Positions 1-24,019 of a DNA stretch of 35,959 nt are shown piece after piece. Each line of letters starts with the position of its first letter. The first letter of the stretch is position 1. This DNA comes from an uncultured Enterobacterales bacterium (lineage in GTDB: Bacteria; Pseudomonadota; Gammaproteobacteria; Enterobacterales; Psychrobiaceae). The notes under the pieces are model-generated. The model saw only the letters and a list, made by a program, of their open reading frames with translations. It made no database searches and was not told the origin of the DNA. The stretch is from NCBI GenBank assembly GCA_937981905.1, contig CALJMY010000039.1, forward strand, positions 1 through 35,959. The letters are read 5' to 3'. The position numbers and the translations under genes were made by a program.

Positions 1-564
1 TTCAGGAACATTAGTCATACCAACCAAGTCACATTGTGCAGCATTTTTCAAAAATAAACTCTCTGCACGAGTTCCTAAGCGAGGACCATCAACACAGGCG
101 TATGTTTTATTCCGATGAATATCAATGTCACAAGTTGCTGCAGCTTTGCTAATAGCATCAGCTAAAGCATTACACGTTGGCTCTGCGGTAGACACATGAG
201 CAACTAAACCTTGACCAAAGAATGTTTTTTCACGGGGTAATTTAACAAAATCAAAATACTGATCGGCAATCGCTAAATCACCAGGTTTAATTTCTTGTTG
301 TAAACTACCAACGGCTGAAAGCCCAATAATTTGACTAACACCCAGTGTCTTTAATGCCCAGATATTAGCGCGATAATTAACTTCCGATGGTAACAAACTA
401 TGATTATTACCATGTCGTGGTAAGAATAAAATTTCTTTACCGCAATATTCACCACGAACAATAGCGGCTGATGGATTACCATATGGCGTTTCAACATGAT
501 GTTCTTCAATGACAGTTAAACCATCAATACTGTAAATTCCGGTGCCACCAATAACTGCTAACAT
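1..564 (-). CDS. MTA/purine nucleoside phosphorylase family protein (3' end outside window)
   Basis: I translated this from the minus strand; it starts MLAVIGGTGIYS and runs off the window edge after 188 codons. The phosphate-binding GGTGIY, the RHGxxHxxxPxxxNYRAN block and the late DGPRLGTRAES...MTNVPE block are those of the 5'-methylthioadenosine phosphorylase (MTAP) branch of purine nucleoside phosphorylases. These cytosolic enzymes release adenine or hypoxanthine from a 5'-modified nucleoside, giving a 5-modified ribose-1-phosphate. AAGGA lies 6 nt before the ATG at 564, and the gene starts 9 nt after the arsenate reductase stop, so it belongs to the arsenic operon. There the substrate could be 5'-deoxy-5'-dimethylarsinoyl-adenosine, an MTA analogue and arsenosugar precursor. 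That is inference; ordinary MTA or methylthioinosine salvage is the alternative. Confidence 0.9.
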   Translation of the reverse strand, partial: MLAVIGGTGIYSIDGLTVIEEHHVETPYGNPSAAIVRGEYCGKEILFLPRHGNNHSLLPSEVNYRANIWALKTLGVSQIIGLSAVGSLQQEIKPGDLAIADQYFDFVKLPREKTFFGQGLVAHVSTAEPTCNALADAISKAAATCDIDIHRNKTYACVDGPRLGTRAESLFLKNAAQCDLVGMTNVPE

Positions 565-573
565 AGTTTTTCC

Positions 574-1014
574 TTAACTCATTTGTTCTGGTAACGATGT
601 TACCCACTGTTTTATTTCATCACGTACACGACGATAATGCGATAACGCTTCTTCATCGGTTTTGGCTTCTTTAGCCAACTTAGGTGGATCGTCAAATTGA
701 TGTGTGATTACATTAGTTTTAGCTGGGAATGTTGGACAATTACTCGCTGCATGTTCACAAACGGCCAATACATAATCAAATTGATCTTCTTCAAACTCAT
801 CAAGTGTTTGAGATTGATGTCTACTGATATCAATACCCGCTTCTTGCATCACTTTAACCGCAAACGGATTTAAACCATGAGACTCAATACCAGCGGAGTA
901 ACTAGCAAATTTACCGCCTAATATAGCGTTAGCAAAGCCGTGTGCCATTTGACTACGACAAGAGTTACCAGTACATAAAAATAAAATAGATTTCACTTTT
1001 TCTTCAGACCTCAT
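574..1014 (-). CDS. arsC: Arsenate reductase, thioredoxin-coupled LMW phosphatase type
   Basis: This 146-residue protein has the low-molecular-weight phosphatase fold signature CTGNSCR (C14 to R20, the CX5R anion loop). A second cysteine pair is at C86 and C93 in VCEHAASNCP, and the Asp-Pro motif FDDPP near residue 109 supplies the general acid. The three cysteines are the relay of thioredoxin-linked arsenate reductases (S. aureus/B. subtilis ArsC type), which reduce As(V) to As(III) in the cytosol; plain tyrosine phosphatases lack the pair. A longer reading frame begins at 1053 but would overlap the radical SAM gene. ATG 1014 has GAAGAA just upstream and is preferred, and GTG at 996 is also possible. 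It supplies arsenite to ArsM encoded in the same operon. Confidence 0.88.
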   Translation of the reverse strand: MRSEEKVKSILFLCTGNSCRSQMAHGFANAILGGKFASYSAGIESHGLNPFAVKVMQEAGIDISRHQSQTLDEFEEDQFDYVLAVCEHAASNCPTFPAKTNVITHQFDDPPKLAKEAKTDEEALSHYRRVRDEIKQWVTSLPEQMS

Positions 1015-1021
1015 AGTTTCT

Positions 1022-1939
1022 TCACATCTCGCTACAGCTGGCGCCGAAGGCAAAACAGCTATAACAACGATGGTGTTTTAGGTTAACGGTTTTTGTCATG
1101 CTTTTTGCGAGCGTTGTTGCTAAAAAATAATCTTCATCGTCATCAACAAGTGTGCAAGCGTACACTTGCATTTCATCGCCTTTCTTAATGATCATTTTCG
1201 ACGTAGCACACATATAATTCTCACGCTGGCTTTGCGTTTGATATTGCGTCATACAATTAGTTGTAATATGCGGTACATCTGCAATCGTCCCTGGTGCTTG
1301 AAAATCAGGAAACGCGACCATTGTCATATCAGTAGGTAAACCATTAAGTGAGAATAATTGTTTATATTCTTGTTCTACTTCAGGCGTTTTTTCACCTTTG
1401 GCCATGTGACGTGCAAGTGAAATATCAAACCCTTTATTGTGTAATAAACGCATACCAATAAATGCTTTAGCAAAGTTGCCTTCACCGCGGCCTTCATCAT
1501 GTATTTTTTCGATGTGCGAATCAATACTGACTCTAAAAGCAACAGGGTGTTGATTCTTAGCTTGTAATTCAATTAATGAATCAAGACGTTTAACTAACGG
1601 CTCTGTGCCGTTGGTTAAGACTAAGCACGGTTTAAAACGAGAAGCATAATCAAGAATATCAATCATATCTTTGGCTAAAAAAGGTTCGCCACCGGTAAAC
1701 GAAAACTGCTCTACGCCCATTGTTAATGCTTCATCAATAAACGGCTTAACCTCTTCAAACTTTGGCGTTAATAAACGCTTATCTGAAGGGCTTGAACCCT
1801 CAAGGCAAAAATCGCAAGATAAATTACATTTAGTACCAGTATGAAACCAAAGCTCTTTAATTGAATGGGGCTTAATATAACCACGAGGATCACCCAGTGG
1901 TGTATATTCCCAATCTTCTTGACGATTTGACTCGTCCAT
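1022..1939 (-). CDS. Radical SAM enzyme of the arsenosugar operon (ArsS-like role)
   Basis: This 305-residue protein has the radical SAM cluster CNLSCDFC (C38, C42, C45) and the SAM-binding GGEP at 83-86. A cysteine-rich C-terminus (C229, C244, C262, then C292, C295, C302 in RCYSCFAFGASC) looks like a SPASM-type auxiliary cluster site. Its ATG shares one base with the ArsM stop (TAATG), so the two are translationally coupled. In known arsenosugar pathways a radical SAM protein, ArsS, adds the 5'-deoxyadenosyl group to dimethylarsenite made by ArsM, and position and partners suggest the same job here. The N-terminal part (LWFHTGTKCNLSC) does not resemble the CNLxCxHC form I associate with classical ArsS. 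It may be a different subfamily doing an equivalent or another step. The family call is firm; the reaction is inferred. Confidence 0.8.
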   Translation of the reverse strand: MDESNRQEDWEYTPLGDPRGYIKPHSIKELWFHTGTKCNLSCDFCLEGSSPSDKRLLTPKFEEVKPFIDEALTMGVEQFSFTGGEPFLAKDMIDILDYASRFKPCLVLTNGTEPLVKRLDSLIELQAKNQHPVAFRVSIDSHIEKIHDEGRGEGNFAKAFIGMRLLHNKGFDISLARHMAKGEKTPEVEQEYKQLFSLNGLPTDMTMVAFPDFQAPGTIADVPHITTNCMTQYQTQSQRENYMCATSKMIIKKGDEMQVYACTLVDDDEDYFLATTLAKSMTKTVNLKHHRCYSCFAFGASCSEM

Positions 1940-3018
1940 TAACAGCAGCTCGATTTAGCTGGTGCAGCAGGGGCACAACAGCTTGATGTTTCGCTGTCTG
2001 AGTTATCACTCATGAAATCAAACGTATTGTCAGTTGATTCAAATAAACCAAGATGTTTATCAAAGTTCCCTTCAAATTCAAAATGCGAACTAAAACGTGA
2101 TTGTTGTAAAGTACGCAATGTATTACCACTAACCTTAGTTGATTCGTTAGCTACAAATGTAGTTGATTCATCAAGTTGAAATTCAGATTCACTTTCACCA
2201 ATACTACCAAGGTAAGTAACCGACTGACCGTAATCTTGAGCGTCTAACTCAAGACCATTAGCTTTAAATAATCGATAAGTTGCTGATGTAAATTTAATGT
2301 CTTCTAATTTATTAGCTAATTCATCATTGTCTATCGTAATTGCACGACTGCCAACAAGTCTTGGCTCTGTAAAGCCAGATTTTTTCGCTAAATTTTCAAA
2401 ATCATTCCAGTAAAGCGCACCACTTAAACATTCACCATACAATAAAGGATCTTCAACTAAATGAGCTGGTACACGTTTATCAGCATAAACATCAGAAAAA
2501 TAGATTTCTCCACCCGGTTTTAAAATTCGAAACACTTCACGCAATACAGCTTCTTTATCAGGGCTTAAGTTAATAACACAATTAGAAATAACAACATCAA
2601 TGCTGTTATCAGCAATATTTAATTCATCTAACTTTTCAATATAACCTTTTAAAAATCGAGTATTAGCTTCTTTATAACCAAATTTTTCACGGTGATATTC
2701 AATATGACGATTAGCAACTTCGAGTTGTTCATCGGTCATATCAACACCAGTAACAGAACCATTCTCACCAACCATTTGAGCAATAGCATAACAATCACGC
2801 CCTGCTCCACAGCCTAAGTCGAGTACGTCACAGTCAGTTAATAATTCTGGGGTTACTAATCCACAACCGTAATAACGCATCATTACTTCATCATGAATGT
2901 TTGATAGTATTTTTTTTATTGAGGGGGTTAAATCATCATCAGTACAACACGCATTGGTTTGTAAATCTTCTGAACCGGTTAACACATTTCCATAATAATC
3001 TTTGACAACGTTATGCAT
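1939..3018 (-). CDS. arsM: Arsenite S-adenosylmethionine methyltransferase
   Basis: This 359-residue class I methyltransferase carries the SAM-binding motif VLDLGCGAGRDCY (about 65-77). The four cysteine positions typical of ArsM are all present: C24/C25 (TNACC), C52 (YGCG), C147 (SNCVINL) and C197 (GECLSG). ArsM binds As(III) through these thiols and methylates it stepwise to mono-, di- and trimethyl arsenicals. The N-terminal KDYYGNVL is also characteristic of the family. The C-terminus ends in two CC pairs (351-352, 358-359) that could capture arsenite. The open frame extends to 3042, but ATG 3018 has AGGAG 9 nt upstream and gives the family N-terminus. It overlaps the preceding glycosyltransferase gene by 8 nt. 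Confidence 0.93.
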   Translation of the reverse strand: MHNVVKDYYGNVLTGSEDLQTNACCTDDDLTPSIKKILSNIHDEVMMRYYGCGLVTPELLTDCDVLDLGCGAGRDCYAIAQMVGENGSVTGVDMTDEQLEVANRHIEYHREKFGYKEANTRFLKGYIEKLDELNIADNSIDVVISNCVINLSPDKEAVLREVFRILKPGGEIYFSDVYADKRVPAHLVEDPLLYGECLSGALYWNDFENLAKKSGFTEPRLVGSRAITIDNDELANKLEDIKFTSATYRLFKANGLELDAQDYGQSVTYLGSIGESESEFQLDESTTFVANESTKVSGNTLRTLQQSRFSSHFEFEGNFDKHLGLFESTDNTFDFMSDNSDSETSSCCAPAAPAKSSCC

Positions 3019-3751
3019 GACTAATAACTCCTGATGTAACAAATAATTGATTGATTGTGCCTAGCAATGCTTGCCTTGCTGGGCGTGGATCGTCTTTAAG
3101 ATCGATCATTAATTTTTCTATATCGGCAATATAATCAATATCATAGCAAGGTTTTGTATAATCAACACTTAATTCATTAGCAACACAAGCGCCAGATAAC
3201 GCTTGAGATAATTCGTCTGTGCTCCATGGTAGATTGATAATATTAGGCCATGGTTTACTATTCGCCATAATAACAACACCACCATCATCAGCATGACTTA
3301 ACACGATATCGTGTTCATTTAATGAATCAATAACGGCTGTATAATGTGATTGAGTTAAAGCTGGAGCGTCTGTACCAATAGTAATTATGTTTTGATGACC
3401 TAAAGAACGTAAAACACGATCAACATAATTTAAGCGTTGCCCAAGGTTGCCTGACAATCCTGATGGTAATTGCGTAAGAACTTGAGCGTTTTTATTCAGG
3501 TCTTGTGCCCATTCAATATCATTATCATCTGAACAAGCAATAACAACAGGACCTTGCCATGCAATACTGTCTTCGATAGCACAGGCTAATAATGCTTTAG
3601 CTATAATTGATGTTTGTTCTGGACTAATAGCTTCAGCTAAACGTTGCTTCCCTTGACCAATTTTAGGACGCTTACAAAATACAACAAGTGTTGGCATCAA
3701 TTCTTTTTTAGCTCGATCACTTAGCGGCATTAATATTATATTGTCAGACAT
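3011..3751 (-). CDS. TIGR04282/DUF2064 glycosyltransferase, arsenosugar-associated
   Basis: This 246-residue protein has the GT-A/nucleotidyltransferase-like fold of the DUF2064 (TIGR04282) family. Visible signs are VVFCKRPKIGQGKQRLA, the Rossmann segment IITIGTDAPAL (the family's TDxP motif) and ADDGGVVIM. The family is routinely found beside arsM and arsS and is named for arsenosugar biosynthesis on that basis; its donor and acceptor sugars are not established. It is predicted cytosolic. No good ribosome-binding site precedes the ATG at 3751. Homology begins near residue 19 (MPTLVVFCKRP), so a start at 3697 is possible. It overlaps arsM by 8 nt and is separated from the DUF547 gene by 43 nt. 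Confidence 0.82.
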   Translation of the reverse strand: MSDNIILMPLSDRAKKELMPTLVVFCKRPKIGQGKQRLAEAISPEQTSIIAKALLACAIEDSIAWQGPVVIACSDDNDIEWAQDLNKNAQVLTQLPSGLSGNLGQRLNYVDRVLRSLGHQNIITIGTDAPALTQSHYTAVIDSLNEHDIVLSHADDGGVVIMANSKPWPNIINLPWSTDELSQALSGACVANELSVDYTKPCYDIDYIADIEKLMIDLKDDPRPARQALLGTINQLFVTSGVISHA

Positions 3752-3794
3752 ATTTTATTTCATACTCAGATGATTGTTTCAATATTAAAAGACC

Positions 3795-4625
3795 TCAATG
3801 AGGTGCATTTAATTTCCAGTTATATTCAAAATCTATATCGCCATTAAAATCATTTAATTTAGTTTTAAGGGCTGGTGTTGCATAATTACTTAAATGTTCT
3901 AATAGTGCTTGCTGTGTATCGCCAAAATCAACCGAAAACGAATTATAAATATTCGATACAATTAATTGATTATCAATAAATTGAACACCTTTAGGTTGAT
4001 TGATATACCTTGTTGCACCTTGTTCTAATTGTTGTTCAATGCTTTTACCAGATAAAGGTATTAATGGTAAATCAGGACATCCAATACTCGCGCAATTAAT
4101 AACGTAATGAATACGTTTGTCTTTCCATATACCGCGTAAAATACCGTGTTCAATATTGTTTAACGTTAATGGCTGATCAACAATAGTAATCAATTTTTTG
4201 TTCCAAGGCCCTGTGTAACCATCCCCAATATCTTTAATCGATTCTATAGGAAAATTTTTTAACACAACCTCTATTGTTAACGCATTATACAAATTAGCCC
4301 AAAAAGCTAACTGTTCATGTTTATTATAGACACGAGGATCGATATCTTTAAGCTGCGTTAAATAACCCGTCAGTAATTTTTTATCTTGCTTTGTTACTTT
4401 TTTATAATCGAATTCGTGAATATTTTTTTCAACATTATTAAATAAATATTTAGCAAGAAAATCACCCCATAATTGGTGATCAATCGATTGCCTATTCTCT
4501 TCATTACTTGTTTGCCAAAAAACAATAGGCGTTGGACTCATCGCTTCATATAGCTTGTAAACTTTAACACCACCAGCAATGGCTAAAAAAGTTAACATAA
4601 CGAGGATAATTTTTACTTTACTCAT
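3795..4625 (-). CDS. DUF547 domain protein, exported or membrane-anchored
   Basis: This 276-residue protein begins with a hydrophobic stretch (about residues 5-25), an uncleaved anchor or signal peptide, followed by a DUF547 domain. The domain is seen from FWANLYNALTI (about 109), the NIEHGILR segment and HYVINCASIGCPDL with two cysteines. DUF547 is a widespread family of unknown reaction that is usually predicted to be periplasmic. Its ATG overlaps the stop of the upstream glycosyltransferase gene as TAATG, so it is co-translated with the envelope glycosylation genes. It lies between the membrane glycosyltransferases and the ArsM/radical SAM core. A role in transfer or processing of the product outside the cytoplasm is a guess; no catalytic residues can be assigned. 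Confidence 0.8.
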   Translation of the reverse strand: MSKVKIILVMLTFLAIAGGVKVYKLYEAMSPTPIVFWQTSNEENRQSIDHQLWGDFLAKYLFNNVEKNIHEFDYKKVTKQDKKLLTGYLTQLKDIDPRVYNKHEQLAFWANLYNALTIEVVLKNFPIESIKDIGDGYTGPWNKKLITIVDQPLTLNNIEHGILRGIWKDKRIHYVINCASIGCPDLPLIPLSGKSIEQQLEQGATRYINQPKGVQFIDNQLIVSNIYNSFSVDFGDTQQALLEHLSNYATPALKTKLNDFNGDIDFEYNWKLNAPH

Positions 4626-5365
4626 TAACTTAATTTCTTCTGTTGCTCAATGATTTCAGTACGTTTAAAGAACAATTTAACAATCATTGATATAATACCG
4701 ATTCCTGCTTTTACCGAGCCTGAAACAGTACCACTAATTTTTGATTCGCCAATACGTACCTTAGAGTCCACTTTATATTCAGAAACTTGCATACCACATA
4801 TAATGGCTTTAACTTGCATTTCTACTGTCCAGCCAAAAGTCTCATCTTGCATATTAATTGCACGTAATGAATCACTTCTTATTGCTCTAAAAGGACCTAA
4901 ATCGGTAATTTTATGTCCCCATATCAAGGTAATTAAGTGACTAGCGAACCAATTACCTAATAATTGAGGTCTGGTTAATGCACCTTTTTCAATATTACCT
5001 AATGTACGGCTACCAATAGCCAAGTCATCGCCATTAATAATACCATCAAGTAGTACTTTTGCTTCTTCGATAAAACATGAATCATCGCCATCAACATACA
5101 ACACGATATCGCATTCAGGTAAACTAGCCATAGCTGTTAAGCATGCAATTCCGTAGCCTTTAATAGGCTGTGATACAACTAATGCTCCGGCTTTAGTCGC
5201 AACGTCAACAGTACTATCTGTAGATCCGTTATCACACACAACGACTTGATCAATAACTTGCTCACCGTCAGCAATTAAGCTGACTAAGCTTTTAACGACT
5301 ATCTCGATAGCTTTTTCTTCATTGAGTGCAGGAATAACTACTGCTACTTTTTGGCCTTTATACAT
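4625..5365 (-). CDS. Family 2 glycosyltransferase, polyprenyl-phosphate type (DPM1-like)
   Basis: This 246-residue GT-A enzyme starts with VAVVIPALNEEKAIE, the nucleotide-sugar site. It continues with VVCDNGSTDST, the metal-binding YVDGDDS (DxD) near residue 93, and TDLGPFRAIR near 158. These match family 2 enzymes of the dolichol/undecaprenyl-phosphate glycosyltransferase group, which load a sugar onto a lipid carrier at the inner face of the membrane. The C-terminal GIGIISMIVKLFF could contact the membrane, but there is no multi-span domain. Such enzymes often supply GT-C transferases, and the next upstream gene encodes a GT-C-like protein. Substrate unknown. The stop overlaps the DUF547 start. 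Confidence 0.85.
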   Translation of the reverse strand: MYKGQKVAVVIPALNEEKAIEIVVKSLVSLIADGEQVIDQVVVCDNGSTDSTVDVATKAGALVVSQPIKGYGIACLTAMASLPECDIVLYVDGDDSCFIEEAKVLLDGIINGDDLAIGSRTLGNIEKGALTRPQLLGNWFASHLITLIWGHKITDLGPFRAIRSDSLRAINMQDETFGWTVEMQVKAIICGMQVSEYKVDSKVRIGESKISGTVSGSVKAGIGIISMIVKLFFKRTEIIEQQKKLS

Positions 5366-5428
5366 GTTTAATCTCTAAATTTTTAATATCTGAATTGATG
5401 AAATATCAAATAGTTTTTGATTCAAAAA

Positions 5429-6826
5429 CTAACAATAATCACTGTTAACATTATTTTTACGAATATGTGGCCAGACACGATACATATAAGTAATTAACGT
5501 AAATAATGCAGTAAGCTGTAAAAAACCAATTAGCCAAATTGGCCATTGTTCTGGTTGCCAGATCTGATTACTCAGAAAAGGCCCTAACACCTCGTAAGTT
5601 AATGGCATTAATAATGTCCAACCGATAATGAAACGGTTAGGAAATAATGCGATAAGAGGAATAAGTGGCATTAAATACCATGGAAATATCACAGGGCTTA
5701 TTAATAATGGTAAAGCGACAGCTAGTTGCATTACACCAAATAATATAGATGTTTTAGATTTAAACTCATGTGTTTTCCAACATAAAAATGCCATAACACT
5801 AGACATTATGATGGCAAAAACAAGCATAAATCCTACAATAGCCTTCGGACTTAATACATTATCTAAACTCGTAAATAAAGGAGCTGCAAAACGCCATTTT
5901 TCAAAGAACACACCGATACTACCTACAGGTAAGAATCCTAAATTTATCGTTAGACCATAAATAGTAATCACAGTAACAATGGCAGATAACACTAATATAA
6001 CTGCGTTTTTAAAACGAGAAAATGTAAATACTAAAGGTAATAACAACATTAATGGCAACGCTTTAATTAACATACCAACGGCTATCACAATTCCAGTAAT
6101 AACTATTTTATGTCGTTGCCACGCATAAATAGCCCCAACTATTGCTAATGTTGATAGCGTATCTAGATGCAAGCCTACACCTGTTTCTAAAATTAATAAT
6201 GGCGATAAAGCTATTAGTGCTAAATGTTCTAATTTTTTAGCATGTTGTAAAACTTTAACCATCAAACCTAATGTAGTAAGGCCCGCGATTAATAAAATAA
6301 GTTTCCAAATAATTTCTGCATTATCAATACCGGTTGATGCAACGAAAGAAAAAAATGCTAATGCAACAGGAGGATAAAGCGTGACATACTTTGCGTGCTC
6401 TTGTGGTGGTTTCCACTGTTCACGTAAATCTTTAAGTATTGGCGCATCATGACTTACTCGATAAGGGTCTATTCCCTCAACAGCAATGCGACCATCAAAT
6501 AAATAACGGTCAACATCATTAGATGTATAAGAATCAACACCTAATAAAACGATACGAGCTAGCACAGCAACAATAAGTAATAATTTATAGTCTTTAATTA
6601 ATACTGATTGAGGAGACGTTTTCCACACAAGCAACATTAAAAGGCCCATGACACTATATTGAGTCATTGTGTAATAACCAATATAACTGATGTCAAAATT
6701 ACTTTGACCACCAGCGATATAAGATAATAAATAACTACTTAGGCTTAACAGTAATACACCAAACAAACTGCTATAAAATAACGAAGTGTTTGGTGTTCGT
6801 ACGTTAAGCCATTGCCAAAACTTCAT
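5429..6826 (-). CDS. Polytopic GT-C-type glycosyltransferase (DUF2029/mannosyltransferase-like)
   Basis: This 465-residue protein has about eleven to twelve hydrophobic segments. An extracytoplasmic loop after the second or third span contains DVDRYLFDGRIAVEGIDPYR, then the YVTLYPPVALAFF motif. Acidic residues in the first loop followed by GIDPYR are typical of GT-C enzymes (GT87/PIG-M-like) that take sugars from polyprenyl phosphate on the periplasmic side. It is separated by 2 nt from the cellulose-synthase-like gene upstream and by 63 nt from the DPM1-like gene downstream. A lipid-linked donor made by that neighbour is the natural partner. The acceptor is unknown; an arsenic-containing sugar or lipid is possible from context only. 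Confidence 0.78.
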   Translation of the reverse strand: MKFWQWLNVRTPNTSLFYSSLFGVLLLSLSSYLLSYIAGGQSNFDISYIGYYTMTQYSVMGLLMLLVWKTSPQSVLIKDYKLLLIVAVLARIVLLGVDSYTSNDVDRYLFDGRIAVEGIDPYRVSHDAPILKDLREQWKPPQEHAKYVTLYPPVALAFFSFVASTGIDNAEIIWKLILLIAGLTTLGLMVKVLQHAKKLEHLALIALSPLLILETGVGLHLDTLSTLAIVGAIYAWQRHKIVITGIVIAVGMLIKALPLMLLLPLVFTFSRFKNAVILVLSAIVTVITIYGLTINLGFLPVGSIGVFFEKWRFAAPLFTSLDNVLSPKAIVGFMLVFAIIMSSVMAFLCWKTHEFKSKTSILFGVMQLAVALPLLISPVIFPWYLMPLIPLIALFPNRFIIGWTLLMPLTYEVLGPFLSNQIWQPEQWPIWLIGFLQLTALFTLITYMYRVWPHIRKNNVNSDYC

Positions 6827-6828
6827 AA

Positions 6829-8310
6829 CTATCTGGTTAATCTGAAGTAATTATAAAAACTATGAAAAGCTGAGGTAATAAAACCAATAGTTAACAATAA
6901 TAAAAACGGTATCATAAACCAGTGTTGTTGAATAATAGCCCAGGTCAATACAGTCGCATAAATAGCGGCTATAACAAATTCAAAAATAGCACCTTTAGGA
7001 GCATCAGCTTTATATCGTTTTTCTTTAACCGGCGTATTTGTTACTACAACATCATCTTTCAATTCGCCTGTTTTAGGGGTACGAACAAACTCACTTTCAC
7101 GTCCTAATAACGCTTCTAATCCTGCTTTTGAATTATTAATCGCTAATTGAATACCTAACATAACTAAGTTTGGTACTTTTGCTAATGCTCTACTCTTAGA
7201 ACGTTTTAAAGCTATTTGGCCCCAATAGAGATAAACAAGATGTCCACCAGACGACAATAATAATAATGGAATATCTATCCACCAAATATTAAGGAAGTCA
7301 TATTTTTCTCTCAAATAAAGACTTGGTAATAAGAAGAATAAAGTATCAAGTAACATAAAAAAGTAAGCTAAGTTATTTGATAAATGAAAACTTGATTCAA
7401 TTTTTTTCGTTAGTGGCAGTTTAGATTTCCAAACTGTCGGTAACATTTTCATCATTACCTGCACGCCACCTTTAGCCCAACGATATTGCTGCGTTTTAAA
7501 AGCATTCATATCAGCAGGTAATTCACCAGGACAACCAATGTCATTTAGGTAAACCATTTTCCAGCCAGCAAGTTGTGCACGATAACTTAAATCTAAATCT
7601 TCTGTTAATGTATCAGCACTCCAATGACCAGCATCAATAATGGCAGATGTACGCCAAATACCAGCTGTACCATTAAAGTTAAACAGCATATCACTAGCAC
7701 AACGTACTTGTTGTTCAATACTAAAATGAGCATCAAGCATAACCGCTTGCGTCTTAGTCAATAAGCTACTACGACGGTTTAAATGCTCCCAACGTAATTG
7801 CACCATGGCAACATTAGATGGTGTGAAATGATTAATACTTTTTAATAATGTGTCAGGATGAGGAATGAAATCAGCATCAAAAATGGCAATAAACTCGCCT
7901 GTTGCTGTATCCATTGCTTCTTTTAAAGCACCCGCTTTAAATCCTTGACGATTGACACGCTGTACATGCTCAATGTTAATTCCTTGAGCTTTATAGAAAT
8001 TAACGCGTTCACGAATAATGTCACAGGTGTCATCAGTTGAATCATCTACTATTTGAATTTGTAAACTTTCACTTGGATACTTAAGCTTAACGATAGAGTC
8101 AACAATACGTTTAGCTACCATACGTTCATTATATAATGGAATTTGTACCGTAACTTTCGGTAATGTATCAAATATCTCGGGCGCTTTAGGCTCAAATTTT
8201 CGATATTTAAACCAACGGAACACCATCGATAAACGATGTAAACCAAACAAACATAAAATAAATAGCAGTGCAAAATGCACTGCTATCATAATTATTGCAA
8301 ATAAAGACAT
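6829..8310 (-). CDS. Processive-type family 2 glycosyltransferase (cellulose/mannan synthase-like)
   Basis: This 493-residue membrane enzyme has an N-terminal span (5-25) and a GT2 domain. The domain shows VQIPLYNERMVAKRI, IVDDSTDD (D89-D90), the FDADF metal site (D145-D147), the TED catalytic base (236-238) and QQYRW (274-278), the QxxRW acceptor motif of processive synthases. Four to five C-terminal membrane spans follow. The family includes cellulose synthase, glucomannan synthase (CslA) and beta-glucan glucosyltransferases. There is no PilZ domain and no BcsB/BcsC neighbour, so it is not a standard cellulose operon. It sits 21 nt after the beta-barrel gene in the arsenic operon. It could extend a glycan on a lipid or make a glycosyl-diglyceride; the product is not predictable. 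Confidence 0.85.
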   Translation of the reverse strand: MSLFAIIMIAVHFALLFILCLFGLHRLSMVFRWFKYRKFEPKAPEIFDTLPKVTVQIPLYNERMVAKRIVDSIVKLKYPSESLQIQIVDDSTDDTCDIIRERVNFYKAQGINIEHVQRVNRQGFKAGALKEAMDTATGEFIAIFDADFIPHPDTLLKSINHFTPSNVAMVQLRWEHLNRRSSLLTKTQAVMLDAHFSIEQQVRCASDMLFNFNGTAGIWRTSAIIDAGHWSADTLTEDLDLSYRAQLAGWKMVYLNDIGCPGELPADMNAFKTQQYRWAKGGVQVMMKMLPTVWKSKLPLTKKIESSFHLSNNLAYFFMLLDTLFFLLPSLYLREKYDFLNIWWIDIPLLLLSSGGHLVYLYWGQIALKRSKSRALAKVPNLVMLGIQLAINNSKAGLEALLGRESEFVRTPKTGELKDDVVVTNTPVKEKRYKADAPKGAIFEFVIAAIYATVLTWAIIQQHWFMIPFLLLLTIGFITSAFHSFYNYFRLTR

Positions 8311-8331
8311 TCGTTATAAACCTATTACTAC

Positions 8332-9180
8332 TTAAAAGACTTTAGTAAGACCTAGTTCAAACCTATTACCTTTCAAAATATTATCACCGTATATTTCTCG
8401 GGTATAAGTGAACTCAAGACCGTAGCCTTTTAATGCGCTACCTTGGTCAAAGCTCCAACCACTCGTAAGCTCTAGTTTACCAGCATCGAACTCTAACGGG
8501 TTAGATAAATCTGAATTTTCAGTAACAACTGTATCTGCATTCTCAACACTTAAAATACCGTCTAACTTTGCTCTGAAGTAAAGGTTTTTAGTTGCACTAA
8601 AACCATATTCAAATAAATAACGATATTCATCTGATGGAGCACCATTACGAAGTCTGTAACCAACTTCAGCGCCAAGATAACCATATTCATTTAAACTTTT
8701 ACCAATAAGTACTTTTGCTTCGTAATCATGTTGGTTATTACCTAAACCATCATCAGAATCATATAAGAAAGGGCTTTTAACTAAAAATGAAGTAGAAAGT
8801 ACGAAAGGATCTGCTTGCCATTGATAACGAACACCAAACTCAGCATCACCAAAACCATCAGTCACTGTTAGACCTACAGCACTATCTCGTTGTTCATAAT
8901 CTTGATAAAGCAAAGAACCAAATATTGAGAAATCATTACCTAAACCATATTCAGCATAGATTGATGCGCCAACGCTTTCAAAATCGATGAATGTTGGGCT
9001 AGCATCATGCGTATCATTTGAATCATAAGTTGAAGCACCTATTTTTACATAACCAGTACCTTCAGCTCCAACCCAAGCTCCAGCACTTGCATTTACTGAA
9101 AATAGCATAGTTGATAAAGCTATTGCTGTTGCTAATGGTTTTACAAGGTTATTTTTAGTAGTTCCGTGTACTTGCTTCAT
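8332..9180 (-). CDS. Outer-membrane beta-barrel protein, unknown function
   Basis: This 282-residue protein has a Sec signal peptide (hydrophobic core ATAIALSTMLFSVNASA, cleavage near residue 34). Alternating hydrophobic strands rich in Tyr, Gly and Asp follow (GAEGTGYVKIGASTYD, EYGFSATKNLYFRAK), and it ends in the C-terminal Phe (FELGLTKVF) used for BAM-dependent insertion. I do not recognise a specific family; it looks like a 12- to 14-strand barrel of the transport or porin-like class. A GTG at 9189 opens the frame, but ATG 9180 with GAGTG 6 nt upstream is preferred. It is the first gene of the arsenic operon and is 21 nt ahead of the glycosyltransferase gene. That suggests an envelope destination for the pathway product. 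Confidence 0.72.
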   Translation of the reverse strand: MKQVHGTTKNNLVKPLATAIALSTMLFSVNASAGAWVGAEGTGYVKIGASTYDSNDTHDASPTFIDFESVGASIYAEYGLGNDFSIFGSLLYQDYEQRDSAVGLTVTDGFGDAEFGVRYQWQADPFVLSTSFLVKSPFLYDSDDGLGNNQHDYEAKVLIGKSLNEYGYLGAEVGYRLRNGAPSDEYRYLFEYGFSATKNLYFRAKLDGILSVENADTVVTENSDLSNPLEFDAGKLELTSGWSFDQGSALKGYGLEFTYTREIYGDNILKGNRFELGLTKVF

Positions 9181-9275
9181 GTTAATCACTCTTTTTTAAT
9201 TAATTGGGCTAATGCAACTAAATTAATCTTATGCGATCTAAATAACAAGTCAGAAATGTCGATAAAATACAAACG

Positions 9276-12611: not shown

Positions 12612-12990
12612 TGGTGGAAGCTGGTCGATAAGCCGGGTTTTGTCGTGGACAATCATTCGTCTAGGCCTATAATCGCTCATAGGCTCAAGCAACCTACCCG
12701 GTTTCCACGCGAGCCACGCGTTTACTATTAAAAGTAATGAAACCCTATTTGGTCTTGCTCCGGGTGGAGTTTACCCTGCAACGAACTATTACTAGTCGCC
12801 CGGTGCGCTCTTACCGCACCCTTTCAGCCTTACCTGTTCCTCACGAATGAGGCCATCGGCGGTCTTCTCTCTGCTGCACTTGTCGTGAGCTTACGCTCCC
12901 CAGGCGTTACCTGGCACCCTGCTCATTGGAGCCCGGACTTTCCTCCCCGTTAAACTTAATGTTAACGCAGCGATTGTCTGACCAACTTCC
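12612..12990 (-). ncRNA. rnpB: RNase P RNA (M1-like, class A)
   Basis: Read on the minus strand this begins GGAAGTTGGTCAGACAATCGC. It contains the hallmark blocks GAGGAAAGTCCGGGCTCC, CAGGGTGCCAGGTAACGCC, AAAGGGTGCGGTAAGAGCGC, GTAAACTCCACCCGGAGCAA and CCAAATAGGG. It ends in CCGGCTTATCGACCAGCTTCCACC, whose ACCAGCTTC pairs with the 5' GAAGTTGGT. Length (about 378 nt) and block order match the gammaproteobacterial type A RNA, the catalytic subunit that trims the 5' leader from pre-tRNA. The exact ends are estimated. It is transcribed away from the rsmI-lpoA block. Confidence 0.97.
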
Positions 12991-19936: not shown

Positions 19937-22480
19937 TTAATGACATTTAAGTAATTTAACATCCGTTGTTAATTCAGATTGAGGCTGTAATTTTATACCG
20001 CTAATTCCTAAATTAATTTTACCAGCGGTGGTTAATCCAAATGGTGAAACAATACGATTAAAAGTAGCACCTTTTTGTTTGAAACATTGTAAGTCGATAG
20101 CAAATGTTAACCATTTATTCTGGCTTACAGCATTAACCATATGAGTAATATCTATATCTGTATTACATTGTTCTTCACACTTCATCGCTACATAAATTGG
20201 CGAAGTCGCTTTATCATTAATTTTGAGGTCAAATACGAGAGCTGAATTAGACTCTTCATTTGAACGTAAATCTTCAGGAAAGTTACTGATTAATTGGTAA
20301 CTAGCCGAACTTTTACCATCGAATGATAATAAACGAGCATCTTCTTGTACTTCACGATCAATCGCTTTAACGTTTATACTTTCTAAAGATTGTGTACTTG
20401 ACTCAACGGCTTCTCGTTTATCGCCAACAATTAAATAACTAGCCCATGGCATTTTAGGCGCACGTTCAAATAACACTAAAGACTTAACATCTTGAGATTG
20501 TTCAGCCACTTCGCTGAAGTTATTAGCTACTTCTACTTTATGGTTATAATCTAATCCATAGCCATAACCAAATAAACCTGTTTCTTTGTCTCCTCGGTTG
20601 ACCTGACTTTGTGTACTAGTTTTAGGCCAAGTAAAAGATAAACGCCCTTTGAAATCATGGTTAACTTTATTGTCATTTGTACGAAGAATAACATCAGCAA
20701 TACCAGCACCTTCACTACCAGGTAACCACGCTGCCACAAATGCGTCACTTGCATTTAATTCAGCGTTAACCCATAACGGTCTACCACTAATAAAGATTGA
20801 AACTACAGAAATTCCTTGTTCTTTTAACCCTTTCAATAATGCTAAGTCTTTTTTATTACCCCGTTGATATTCAATGTTATCAATATCACCATGACCTTCC
20901 GCATAAGGTTCTTCACCAAACACAACAATAGCGACATCAGGCTTTTTTTGATAAGAACCATCAACGCTTAATTCAATTTCACCATCTGCATTATCAATTA
21001 CTTTTTTAAGCCCTTGGTAAATAGAAGTACCACCTGGGAAGTCAGTATTTTTATTACCTGTTCCTTGCCAAGAAATAGTCCAACCACCTGATTGCTTAGC
21101 AATATTGTCAGCGCCATCACCAACAATCAATATATTTTGATTAGGTGACAACGGTAATAATTGATTATTATTTTTAAGTAATACTAGTGATTCACGAACC
21201 GCTTGGCGTGCAATTTCACGATTTTCTAAGGCACCAATTAATTCTGTTTTTCCAGAAAGCTTACGTTTTGCAGGGCTAGGTTTTGTAAATAATCCGGCTC
21301 TAAACTTAACGCGTAAAATACGTGTCACAGCATCATCAATACGAGACATAGCAATATCGCCACTTTTTACTTGTGCGATTAAGTTATAGTATAGCGGTTT
21401 CCATGCTTTGGTTGGCACCATAAATATGTCGAGCCCAGCATTGACGGCTTGCACGCAACTTTCATTACTACAGCCTTCTACTTGTCCATGTCCGTTCCAG
21501 TCCCCAACAACAAAACCGTCAAATCCCATTCTTGTTTTTAATACATCAGTTAGCAGGTACTTACTGCCATGATTTTTCTTTCCATGCCAACTATTAAAAG
21601 ATGCCATAACCGATTGTGCTCCAGCACTCAAGCCGCCAATATAACCTTGAGCATGCAATCTAAATAAATCTTCTTCACTGTCTATATTGTCACCTTGGTC
21701 ATCACCTTTCACTGTTCCACCATCACCTAAAAAATGTTTTACAGTACTAATAACACGGTCATCTCCCAAGAAGTCATCATCAAAACTGCCCTGCAGCCCT
21801 TTAACAACAGCTGCTGAATAAGATTTCACAATCTCAGGATCTTCAGAATAGCCTTCATAAGTACGACCCCACCTATCATCTCTCACAACTGCAACAGTAG
21901 GTGCAAATACCCAATCGATACCAGTAACCATAACTTCTTTTGCTGTAATGGCTGCAATTTTTTCAACTAAGTCAGGATTATTCATTGCTCCTAAACCTAT
22001 ATTATGTGGGAATAACGTTGCACCAATAACATTGTTATGGCCATGCACAGCATCTGTACCCCACATAGTTGGAATTGCTGAACCGTCATGGCTAGTATCA
22101 ATTGATGCTAAATACATAGCCTGCGCTAAATTAATCCAATCGGCAGGAGGAGATTTTTTATTTGCTGTCGGGAAAGATCCTCCTCCGTTTAAATAAGAGC
22201 CAAAACCATATTTACGCATATCTTCAATCGTAAAATCGCCAATCTCTGGTTGAATCATTTGTGCTATTTTTTGTTCTAACGTCATTGTTGCTAACAACGT
22301 TGATACCTTTTTTTCGACAATAGGGTCTTTCTTTACTTCAAAATTTAATCGTGGCCAAATTTTATTAAGACTATTTTTTTCACCACCTTGACCAGTCACT
22401 TGAGCACTACAATTAAATGTAGAAGTTAAAAATAAGCTCATTATGCAAGTTAATGTAGCTGTTGCTTTTTTTATAATCAT
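19937..22480 (-). CDS. Secreted GH3 beta-glucosidase/exo-beta-glucanase (ExoP-like)
   Basis: This 847-residue enzyme has a signal peptide (to about residue 27, CSA). The GH3 (alpha/beta)8 domain has GTDAVHGHNNV, VKHFLGDGG (KH near 248) and the nucleophile Asp327 in FVVGDWNGH. The GH3 C-domain has the likely acid/base Glu528 in YAEGHGDI. An extra C-terminal domain of about 200 residues (from about 645) matches the ExoP-type exo-1,3/1,4-beta-glucanases of marine gammaproteobacteria, where it is a jelly-roll module. It should release glucose from beta-glucans such as laminarin in the periplasm or outside. ATG 22480 with AAGG upstream is preferred over TTG 22489. It is divergent from GH1 over a shared operator. 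Confidence 0.92.
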   Translation of the reverse strand: MIIKKATATLTCIMSLFLTSTFNCSAQVTGQGGEKNSLNKIWPRLNFEVKKDPIVEKKVSTLLATMTLEQKIAQMIQPEIGDFTIEDMRKYGFGSYLNGGGSFPTANKKSPPADWINLAQAMYLASIDTSHDGSAIPTMWGTDAVHGHNNVIGATLFPHNIGLGAMNNPDLVEKIAAITAKEVMVTGIDWVFAPTVAVVRDDRWGRTYEGYSEDPEIVKSYSAAVVKGLQGSFDDDFLGDDRVISTVKHFLGDGGTVKGDDQGDNIDSEEDLFRLHAQGYIGGLSAGAQSVMASFNSWHGKKNHGSKYLLTDVLKTRMGFDGFVVGDWNGHGQVEGCSNESCVQAVNAGLDIFMVPTKAWKPLYYNLIAQVKSGDIAMSRIDDAVTRILRVKFRAGLFTKPSPAKRKLSGKTELIGALENREIARQAVRESLVLLKNNNQLLPLSPNQNILIVGDGADNIAKQSGGWTISWQGTGNKNTDFPGGTSIYQGLKKVIDNADGEIELSVDGSYQKKPDVAIVVFGEEPYAEGHGDIDNIEYQRGNKKDLALLKGLKEQGISVVSIFISGRPLWVNAELNASDAFVAAWLPGSEGAGIADVILRTNDNKVNHDFKGRLSFTWPKTSTQSQVNRGDKETGLFGYGYGLDYNHKVEVANNFSEVAEQSQDVKSLVLFERAPKMPWASYLIVGDKREAVESSTQSLESINVKAIDREVQEDARLLSFDGKSSASYQLISNFPEDLRSNEESNSALVFDLKINDKATSPIYVAMKCEEQCNTDIDITHMVNAVSQNKWLTFAIDLQCFKQKGATFNRIVSPFGLTTAGKINLGISGIKLQPQSELTTDVKLLKCH

Positions 22481-22576
22481 TTTTATCAACCTTATTTTAT
22501 TTACCTATCATCAACTTTATGTTTATTAACAAAACAAATTAGTTGACCTTGGCTTTAGAAAGAACTAACCTCTTAA

Positions 22577-22590
22577 TGTAAGCGCTTTCA
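22577..22590. promoter_or_regulatory. LacI-family operator between divergent GH3 and GH1 genes
   Basis: TGTAAGCGCTTTCA matches the site at 19111-19124 at 13 of 14 positions and has the AAGCGCTT core. It lies 97 nt before the GH3 start and 86 nt before the GH1 start, so one repressor could control both directions. Confidence 0.75.
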
Positions 22591-22675
22591 TGTGTTCTAA
22601 ATTTATCAGAGTTATAGGTAAAAGCGCAAGAATAAATAATGTATTAATCGTCAATTTTTAAATAGGTACTAATAA

Positions 22676-24007
22676 ATGCAAGCCACTTTATCACTCCCTT
22701 CAAGTTCAACAATGCTCAATAAAAATTTTATTTACGGTGTGGCTACCGCTTCATTTCAAATCGAAGGTGGCGCAGCGAATAGATTACCTTGTATTTGGGA
22801 TACGTTTTGTAATACTCCAGGTAAGGTATTAGATAACTCTAATGGTGATGTAGCTTGTAATCATTACAATTTATGGGAAAAAGACATAGAGTTAATAGAT
22901 TCGCTAGGTGTAGATGCTTATCGATTATCTATTTCATGGCCTCGCGTCATGACACAAAGTGGAGACTTAAACCCTGAAGGCGTTCATTATTATCTAAATA
23001 TTTTAAAACGATTAAAAGATAAAAATATTAAGGCATTTGTTACTCTATATCACTGGGACTTACCACAACACTTAGAAGATAATGGTGGCTGGTTAAATCG
23101 TGAAACCGCTTATAAATTTCAAGAATACGCTGATAAAATAAGTATCGCTTTAAAAGGTTATGTCCATTCTTACGCTACACTAAATGAACCTTTTTGTAGT
23201 GCTTATCTAGGTTATGAAGCTGGTATTCACGCACCTGGTATTAAAGGGAAAGAATACGGCAAAAAAGCCGCACATCATTTATTATTAGCGCATGGACTTG
23301 CCATGCAAGTATTAACCAAAAATAGCCCTAATACATCTAATGGTATCGTGCTTAACTTCACTCCCGCTTACCCAGCAACAGATAGCGCAGCAGATAAAGC
23401 AGCAAGTGACTATGCAGATGATTACTTTAATCAGTGGTATGCAAAACCATTATTTGATGCACAATATCCATCGATCAATGAGCAACTACCTAAAGACCAA
23501 CAACCGGTGATCTTTAAAGATGATATGGAGATCATTAGCCATCCTTTAGATTTCTTAGGTGTTAATTTTTATACGCGTGCTGTTTATAGCCATGACGATA
23601 ATGAAAAATTTAAAGAAATGCCTGCTCGTGAACCACGCACCGATATCGGCTGGGAAATATACCCAGATGCTTTCACAGCATTGTTAACGTCACTTAATGA
23701 AAAGTACATATTACCTCCTATTTACATTACTGAAAATGGCGCAGCGATGGCTGATAAAATCGTCGACGATGAAGTGCTAGATAACGATCGTATTAGCTAT
23801 TATCAATCACATTTAAATGCCGTTCATTGTGCTATTGAAAAAGGTGTTAATGTACAAGGTTACTTTGCATGGAGCCTAATGGATAATTTTGAATGGGCTG
23901 AAGGTTATACGAAACGTTTTGGTATTGTTTATGTGAATTACGAAACACAAAAGCGAACAATCAAAGCTAGTGGTCTAGCGTATAAAAACCTCATTTCAAA
24001 TAGATAA
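22676..24007 (+). CDS. GH1 beta-glucosidase, cytosolic
   Basis: This 443-residue family 1 enzyme has FIYGVATASFQIEGG at the N-terminus, the acid/base Glu171 in ATLNEPFCSAYLG, the nucleophile Glu353 in YITENGA, and WSLMDNFEWAEGYTKRFG near the end. There is no signal peptide, so it hydrolyses beta-glucosides or cellobiose/laminaribiose in the cytoplasm after uptake. AGG lies about 9 nt before the ATG. The first 12 residues precede the usual family start, so an ATG at 22712 is possible. The GPH transporter starts 12 nt after its stop, making a two-gene operon. Confidence 0.95.
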   Translation: MQATLSLPSSSTMLNKNFIYGVATASFQIEGGAANRLPCIWDTFCNTPGKVLDNSNGDVACNHYNLWEKDIELIDSLGVDAYRLSISWPRVMTQSGDLNPEGVHYYLNILKRLKDKNIKAFVTLYHWDLPQHLEDNGGWLNRETAYKFQEYADKISIALKGYVHSYATLNEPFCSAYLGYEAGIHAPGIKGKEYGKKAAHHLLLAHGLAMQVLTKNSPNTSNGIVLNFTPAYPATDSAADKAASDYADDYFNQWYAKPLFDAQYPSINEQLPKDQQPVIFKDDMEIISHPLDFLGVNFYTRAVYSHDDNEKFKEMPAREPRTDIGWEIYPDAFTALLTSLNEKYILPPIYITENGAAMADKIVDDEVLDNDRISYYQSHLNAVHCAIEKGVNVQGYFAWSLMDNFEWAEGYTKRFGIVYVNYETQKRTIKASGLAYKNLISNR

Positions 24008-24019
24008 TACTTGGTACTA

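Follow-up and report, generated by a model that had tools for sequence, protein, structure and literature searches.

Ten genes at one end of a contig from an uncultured Enterobacterales bacterium (Psychrobiaceae; CALJMY010000039.1) place enzymes expected for arsenosugar synthesis in one row with membrane glycosyltransferases and an outer-membrane beta-barrel, raising the question whether the two sets serve a single pathway and, if so, where the arsenic would go. The window, meaning here the whole stretch of 35,959 nucleotides that was analysed, is contig C39 of a 3.1-Mb draft genome (255 contigs, 82.7% complete). Its list of open reading frames (ORFs) bore out a sequence-only reading that had described ten same-strand genes with overlaps or short gaps: all ten ORFs were found in tandem on the minus strand, reading from position 9189 down to position 1, where the contig end truncates the last gene. 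We give about an even chance to the reading that an arsenosugar pathway is wired here to an envelope glycosylation module, and regard the gene set as a plausible new variant of that pathway with comparative support. In the order of the row, the features are:

8332..9180, minus strand: putative outer-membrane beta-barrel with a COG4313/FapF-like channel fold, first in the row (AlphaFold2 model and Foldseek)
6829..8310, minus strand: family 2 glycosyltransferase (GT2) resembling cellulose and PgaC synthases, carrying the motifs DD, DxD, TED and QxxRW and roughly four transmembrane segments (Pfam, motifs, hydropathy)
5429..6826, minus strand: GT-C polytopic glycosyltransferase with a polyprenyl-phosphate sugar as the expected donor (AlphaFold2 model and Foldseek; GT87 match below the gathering score)
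4625..5365, minus strand: DPM-like GT2 lacking transmembrane segments, a predicted synthase of polyprenyl-phosphate arsenoribose (similarity to AglJ and DPM)
3795..4625, minus strand: DUF547 protein with an N-terminal hydrophobic segment (PF04784)
3011..3751, minus strand: TIGR04282/DUF2064 protein, predicted nucleotidyltransferase activating arsenoribose-1-phosphate (DUF2064, CofC)
1939..3018, minus strand: ArsM-type arsenite methyltransferase (NF008823 match, cysteines)
1022..1939, minus strand: radical S-adenosylmethionine (SAM) protein with an ArsS-like layout, outside TIGR04167, predicted to transfer an adenosyl group to dimethylarsenic (CX3CX2C, profile comparison)
574..1014, minus strand: ArsC, thioredoxin-type arsenate reductase (LMWPc, arsC_pI258)
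1..564, minus strand: MTAP-family phosphorylase, truncated by the contig end (TIGR01694)

Neighbouring genes in the row either overlap or are separated by no more than 63 nt (67 nt if TIGR04282 begins at a later Met). The gaps measure 21 nt between barrel and QxxRW GT2, 2 nt between QxxRW GT2 and GT-C, 63 nt between GT-C and the DPM-like GT2, 43 nt between DUF547 and TIGR04282 (67 nt with the later Met as start), 7 nt between radical SAM and ArsC and 9 nt between ArsC and MTAP; the DPM/DUF547 and ArsM/radical SAM junctions read TAATG, and TIGR04282 and ArsM overlap by 8 nt (ATGCATAA). The likely starts lie at 3018 for ArsM, 1014 for ArsC and 9180 for the barrel.

Searches of 394 genomes of the order returned the radical SAM protein in 16 (E 1e-20) and the GT-C protein in eight (E 1e-15), all among the 16 radical SAM carriers, and a barrel profile matched exactly the same eight genomes (E 1e-8). 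These eight represent three genera in three families, six belonging to the window's own genus. The association of GT-C and barrel with the radical SAM gene is beyond chance; its calculated figure of 1e-12 is overstated because it assumes independent genomes, while six of the eight share one genus. At the level of the class, a radical SAM profile gave six matches among 312 genomes (E 1e-40), including the window's genome and G006. In three of the other four (L129, L130 and L132) ArsM and/or TIGR04282/TIGR04283 genes adjoin the radical SAM gene and the glycosyltransferase module is absent; L131 (genome G608), where gene picking turned up no radical SAM ORF, was left out of the count.

A GT-C alignment scan of the genome contigs gave 19 loci, whose titles name Cognaticolwellia, Pseudocolwellia, Colwellia, Shewanella, Parashewanella, Psychrobium, Aliikangiella, Paraglaciecola, Agaribacter, 'Endozoicomonas', an Alteromonadaceae bacterium and unnamed gammaproteobacteria, the named carriers including Cognaticolwellia mytili, Pseudocolwellia agarivorans, Parashewanella curva and Aliikangiella coralliicola (L036, L037, L045, L047, L048 and L050 coincide in contig or genome with G061, G152, G139, G096, G302 and G006, respectively). 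The order barrel, QxxRW GT2, GT-C, DPM-like domain is kept in all 19, and 14 of them run on into TIGR04282, ArsM, radical SAM and MTAP (the presence of MTAP being part of the criterion for these 14), with ArsC also found in 11 of the 14. The association that the sequence-only reading had proposed to look for in relatives is therefore present. DUF547 adjoins the DPM-like gene in 15 of the 19 loci, one copy being truncated by a contig end. In L042 and L044 the contig ends within or after DUF547; a further contig of the L044 genome opens with an ars core, and in the genome of L049 fragments of ArsM and of the radical SAM gene sit at the termini of separate contigs. L047 shares its genome with G096, where the glycosyltransferase module and the ars core (contig C429) are both present on different contigs and TIGR04283 was not found. 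The alignments described below omit L034 (radical SAM, alignment A3), L044 (barrel and QxxRW GT2), L044 and L049 (DPM-like GT2) and the ArsS loci L078 and L079 (alignment A9).

Linkage was also seen beyond proximity. L049 encodes the DPM-like GT2 and TIGR04282 as a single fusion protein of 489 residues, and TIGR04282 and ArsM form one protein in L046 and L052. Trees of 16 clusters, built from barrel, QxxRW GT2, GT-C and DPM-like GT2 and from TIGR04282, ArsM, radical SAM and MTAP, share 11 of 13 splits, with a distance correlation of r = 0.96; the unshared splits have supports of 0.56 and 0.95 in the glycosyltransferase-half tree and of 0.48 and 0.99 in the ars-half tree, so that each conflict has one weak side. 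In both trees Aliikangiella groups with Agaribacter and Paraglaciecola, and C. psychrerythraea GAB14E stands apart from the other Colwellia, placements that, judged without a species tree, look like transfer of the whole cassette. That two unrelated gene sets are mere neighbours, as the separate halves in G096 and G395 might suggest, is largely refuted and to us scarcely credible in view of an order conserved across many genera, congruent trees, fusion, and co-occurrence even where the halves lie apart.

The envelope module occupies a place that is held elsewhere by TIGR04283. All eight radical SAM carriers without GT-C have a TIGR04283 match above 120 bits (on a separate contig in G274), and such matches reach at least 100 bits in two of the 19 GT-C carriers. 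These two genes (G000:C175:2249-2911, L104, and G395:C159, L105) are 70% alike mutually; their likeness to the cluster type is only 19-31% in the longer matches and no ars genes are nearby, and they were therefore counted as distant paralogues. Hits of only 59-67 bits in G000, G061, G396, G406, G039 and G017 were treated as generic GT2. None of the 27 carriers searched was found to have both cluster-type TIGR04283 and the DPM-like gene. Clusters of TIGR04282, ArsM, radical SAM, (ArsC), MTAP and TIGR04283 in related gammaproteobacteria share the core with the window (radical SAM 58-61% and MTAP 64-69% identical) and have TIGR04283 where the window has the envelope module; they are complete in L030, without ArsC in L028 and truncated at ArsM by the contig start in L027. 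The earlier proposal, which grouped the barrel and the membrane-type glycosyltransferases with the arsenic genes, was in this respect upheld by co-conservation, co-inheritance, fusion and this exchange. As a separate observation, LrgA/LrgB-like membrane genes lie directly upstream of the TIGR04283-type clusters in L028 and L030, LrgB being recognized by Pfam in L028 only.

The arsenic half was then assigned protein by protein. The radical SAM protein carries CX3CX2C, and C38, C42, C45, C244, C262, C292, C295 and C302 are invariant in 16 of 16 sequences. It scores 44.4 bits for ArsS (TIGR04167), for which the cut-off is 300, and its best NCBIfam match is Rv1681 (115 of 380 bits); a profile comparison with eight of ten ArsS proteins covered 258 columns at a probability of 96.6, extending to the C-terminus with the cysteines there aligned. 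True ArsS occurs in 10 of the 394 genomes, all of one genus and none among the 16 carriers, and in one of 14 control genomes (Synechococcus elongatus); TIGR04282- or TIGR04283-like genes adjoin it in three of the four loci opened. An identity with canonical ArsS was rejected on the bit score and the lack of co-occurrence with true ArsS, and the protein was kept as working like ArsS. Its earlier assignment to a known step of the arsenosugar pathway thus failed for the TIGR04167 family and stood for the shared cysteine layout. The radical SAM protein also matched two plasmid records, from Marinobacter and Roseomonas, with no cassette among the annotated neighbours in Marinobacter; the homologue on pHP-187 of Marinobacter adhaerens HP15 (L123:8001-8901, 50% identity) falls into two tblastn pieces with no gene listed in an incomplete plasmid gene table, and is perhaps broken.

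Radical SAM enzymes are described in arsenosugar and arsinothricin synthesis, in the latter for aminocarboxypropyl transfer (excerpts of PMC12159101 and PMC8552651), the arsenosugar step being adenosylation of the arsenic (PMC12159101, in the same excerpt). The enzyme of the row might be no adenosyl transferase, and the product another organoarsenical such as an arsinothricin-like aminocarboxypropyl compound. This would agree with the low ArsS score, with the absence of true ArsS from the carriers, and with the lack of MTAP in the stretch fetched around three of the eight order carriers without GT-C (L032, L033 and L034). We nevertheless consider it highly improbable given the ArsS cysteine layout over the aligned columns, the MTAP gene in all 14 ars-half loci and in the other five of those eight carriers, and the TIGR04282- or TIGR04283-like neighbours of true ArsS.

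MTAP acts on 5'-substituted adenosines. The truncated window copy reaches 226 bits for TIGR01694, and a full-length homologue (L021:6413-7261) passes the cut-off of 274.85 with 282.3 bits. MtnN, which we take to be the usual enzyme for methylthioadenosine, was found elsewhere in the genome in 11 of 11 carriers tested (below cut-off in G302), and the MTAP-type phosphorylase of the row would therefore be free for another 5'-substituted adenosine. The TIGR04282 protein scores 112 bits for its model (110.6 in L049; cut-off 134), is above gathering for DUF2064 (53 bits) and for Pfam CofC (26.2 versus 22 bits), and matches PDB 3cgx, a putative nucleotide-diphospho-sugar transferase, at 1e-22, with K27, K35, R37, D128, D204 and D206 invariant. 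It is more likely a nucleotidyltransferase than the glycosyltransferase that it had been taken for. ArsM matches NF008823 (186 of 263 bits) and AsSugarArsM (94 of 400), both below cut-off, and Methyltransf_31 above gathering; C32, C33, C60, C84, C155 and C205 (numbered from the TTG at 3042) are invariant in 16 of 16 homologues, the arsenic-binding residues presumably being among them. ArsC is above gathering for LMWPc (71 bits) and reaches 148 bits for arsC_pI258, with a cut-off of 174. The row was said to have no efflux pump, which is correct for the row, and a search of the window's draft genome gave no Acr3; of 17 carriers tested, however, 8 have Acr3 elsewhere.

Turning to the envelope module, the barrel gave no Pfam or NCBIfam match and no meaningful PDB sequence match, and the fold comparison alone was informative. 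Its AlphaFold2 model (predicted local distance difference test, pLDDT, 78.4; predicted template modelling score, pTM, 0.75) has 13 strand elements, and the best Foldseek matches are FapF and the COG4313 channel of Pseudomonas putida (PDB 4rl8), with target template modelling (TM) scores of 0.59-0.71 at 11-15% identity; the fold may be related to that of 4rl8 (target TM 0.71; 14-15% identity), but COG4313 channels are 12-stranded and the model shows 13 strand elements at pLDDT 78. The QxxRW GT2 matches Pfam Glyco_tranf_2_3 with 91 bits, has cellulose synthase as PDB matches and resembles PgaC, and its DD, DxD, TED and QxxRW motifs are invariant in 19 aligned proteins (the window and 18 of the 19 loci). 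DUF547 (PF04784, 84 bits) has a hydrophobic stretch at residues 4-22; neither it nor GT-C gave a sequence match in the PDB.

GT-C scores 22.4 bits for Pfam GT87, below the gathering score of 25, and its predicted structure (pLDDT 87.1, pTM 0.89) has the GT-C fold: the first 13 Foldseek matches are GT-C proteins, with target TM scores of 0.20-0.63, the better ones 0.5-0.63. The best solved matches (target TM 0.29-0.63) are GPI transamidase chain U, GPI mannosyltransferase I, ALG3, ALG6, ALG9 and PimE; several titles name Dol-P-Man or Dol-P-Glc as bound donor, and the remaining ones presumably use a polyprenyl-phosphate sugar too. D104 is invariant in 21 aligned proteins, and the first seven have both D104 and D106. 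The DPM-like GT2 (Pfam Glycos_transf_2) matches AglJ (113 of 325 bits) and a dolichyl-phosphate hexose transferase model (88 of 375), both below cut-off and spanning most of the protein, and aligns with DPM synthase 5mlz over positions 2-212 of 247 (E 3.1e-10).

Additional genes were noted within or next to some of the related modules. A YpdA-like flavoprotein fused to a NapH-like iron-sulphur membrane domain stands between GT-C and the DPM-like gene in 12 of the 19 loci (e.g. L038:11419-13773) and is missing from the window; it may supply electrons for the radical SAM step or for arsenic reduction. Adjoining its cassette, the Paraglaciecola draft locus L049 (493-3886) has a second DUF547-like and a second GT-C-like gene (24-25% to the window's by BLAST) as well as a fatty acid hydroxylase recognized by Pfam, which may point to a lipid product.

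As GT-C, the DPM-like GT2 and the barrel match polyprenyl-phosphate-sugar enzymes and outer-membrane channels, the natural reading of the models and similarities would be that arsenic is delivered to the cell envelope. The sequence-only reading had the arsenic sugar placed on a lipid or glycan and sent to the envelope; co-conservation, fusion and folds favour the delivery, and add nothing as to the identity of the product. In the ArnC/ArnT and DPM1/PMT relays a GT2 makes a polyprenyl-phosphate sugar and a GT-C enzyme uses it across the membrane; to our knowledge, no relay of this type is known to carry an arsenic sugar. For the row we infer every chemical step, the acceptor, a flippase and the direction of passage through the barrel as follows. 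ArsC would reduce arsenate to arsenite, ArsM would dimethylate it, and the ArsS-like radical SAM protein would put a 5'-deoxyadenosyl group on the dimethylarsenic to give dimethylarsinoyl-adenosine. The MTAP-type phosphorylase could then remove adenine, leaving 5-deoxy-5-dimethylarsinoyl-ribose-1-phosphate, which the CofC-like TIGR04282 protein could convert to a nucleotide sugar (nucleoside diphosphate-arsenoribose); this succession of phosphorolysis, sugar-1-phosphate and activation is suggested by the enzyme families. The DPM-like GT2 would move the arsenoribose onto polyprenyl phosphate, and after flipping, GT-C would transfer it in the periplasm to an acceptor (glycolipid or glycan) built by the QxxRW GT2, with the barrel as the putative outer-membrane end of the route. 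In its full form, that marine gammaproteobacteria hang a polyprenyl-phosphate-linked arsenic ribofuranose on a surface glycan or glycolipid (an arsenoglycan) by means of a horizontally moving cassette, the reading is tentative, and we regard it as possible rather than probable.

Several observations weigh against this route. The row has no flippase gene, and the proposed chemistry is predicted from genes and folds. The curated cut-offs of ArsS, TIGR04282, ArsC and ArsM are all missed by the window members, and the carriers with no MTAP gene nearby belong here as well. The TIGR04283 model at E 1e-15 also matches 9 of the 14 control genomes, and its own cut-off is passed in only two of 27 genomes (G023 and G017). 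The sole Foldseek match of GT-C with E below 0.001 is GPI transamidase chain U, which we take to be the non-catalytic PIG-U, the catalytic ones having E 0.003-0.008. The best PDB match of the DPM-like GT2 is GpgS (glucosyl-3-phosphoglycerate synthase, 4y6n; positions 4-94, E 1.5e-11), and because this E is better than that for DPM synthase, a soluble acceptor is possible.

This partial match, with 57 bits for the glucosyl-3-phosphoglycerate synthase model in NCBIfam, favours an alternative in which the DPM-like GT2 takes the place of TIGR04283, its product being a small arsenosugar with glycerol or phosphoglycerol, or else an arsenosugar phospholipid, while the QxxRW GT2, GT-C and barrel make or export a carrier lipid and never handle arsenoribose. 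The finding of cluster-type TIGR04283 and the DPM-like gene only in different carriers among those searched would fit as well, and phospholipids bearing arsenosugars have been described in algae and in Mono Lake biota (PMC7345539, in excerpt). The matches that span most of the DPM-like GT2 are nonetheless polyprenyl-phosphate hexose enzymes, its partner GT-C has the fold of polyprenyl-phosphate-sugar users, and GT-C and barrel never occur without the DPM domain in the 19 loci; we therefore judge this alternative rather unlikely.

Two of the loci also count against the arsenoribose route: L051 has the glycosyltransferase module, and a search of its 2.6-Mb genome revealed no radical SAM or TIGR04282 gene; the genome of L042, where the locus ends at a contig end, gave neither of them. 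L051, together with the resemblance of the QxxRW GT2 to PgaC and cellulose synthases, would suit a module that makes an ordinary, non-arsenylated glycolipid or polysaccharide and aids arsenic tolerance as a barrier or otherwise. This seems to us distinctly unlikely, since the module is linked to the activation step of the arsenic sugar, rather than to general stress, by the fusion of DPM-like GT2 and TIGR04282 and by its exchange with TIGR04283, and the genome of L051 is a draft that may be incomplete.

Transcription signals bear on the arsenoribose route in the same unfavourable sense. Between DUF547 and TIGR04282 the window has a short terminator-like hairpin (3792-3804) and a promoter-like site (10/12; 3763-3735), and separate control of the arsenic half is possible. 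Measured on longest ORFs, the two genes overlap by 1-34 nt in five of the 14 relatives having DUF547 (L045, L050, L052, L053 and L054) and are 4-72 nt apart in the other nine, so that a terminator at this junction is no fixed feature. The scan for such signals gave 29 promoter-like sites, fewer than the shuffle mean of 43, and 15 terminator-like sites, more than the 4.9 in shuffles, the majority inside genes. A perfect 12-bp hairpin with a T-rich tail was noted at 8261-8287, inside the first codons of the QxxRW GT2 gene; an attenuator at this gene start was considered and dropped, as only three of 12 other loci folded showed a similar stem, strong in L036 and L037 and weaker in L038.

The closest described pathway is that of cyanobacteria with ArsM and ArsS (Xue 2019 and Cheng 2021, as cited in excerpts of PMC8552651 and PMC12159101). 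The window resembles it in having ArsM and a radical SAM protein with the ArsS cysteine layout, and differs in that the radical SAM protein lies outside TIGR04167 and the row adds MTAP, ArsC, TIGR04282, DPM-like GT2, GT-C, QxxRW GT2 and barrel. A three-component transfer of pentofuranose is described in Citrobacter, with polyprenyl-phosphate loading, flipping and addition outside by a GT-C enzyme (Kelly 2024, PMC11127046, in excerpt). There the components are a polyprenyl phosphoribose synthase, a MATE flippase and GT136, whereas the row in the window combines the DPM-like GT2 with a GT87-like GT-C and lacks a flippase gene; the ten proteins gave no phosphoribose synthase or MATE match in Pfam or NCBIfam, and no search was aimed at GT136. 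Two genes annotated as 'arsenosugar biosynthesis glycosyltransferase' are reported in a bacterium (PMC13077682, in excerpt). Among the literature matches listed, which cover few subscription papers, no title or abstract opening described an arsenosugar cluster with GT-C, DPM-like GT2 or barrel; the accessible part of PMC12608789 has nothing on such a cluster, and the accessible parts of the literature examined name no enzymes for the steps after ArsM and ArsS. The bacterial producers named in the available part of one review are cyanobacteria only (PMC12159101).

Elsewhere in the window, a bacterial class A RNase P RNA was found at 12613-12989 on the minus strand, and two beta-glucosidase-like ORFs and one sugar-transporter-like ORF, judged from their translations, stand in a row at 19937-25543.

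Arsenosugars and arsenolipids are widespread in marine life. The gene set offers candidates for each of the later steps of their synthesis, namely phosphorolysis, activation, lipid loading, transfer and export, and the assembly of arsenolipids or arsenoglycans becomes directly testable in named carrier strains. The family named arsenosugar glycosyltransferase (TIGR04282) may be a nucleotidyltransferase. If the arsenoglycan reading is true, arsenic would be a structural sugar substituent of the cell envelope in these bacteria.

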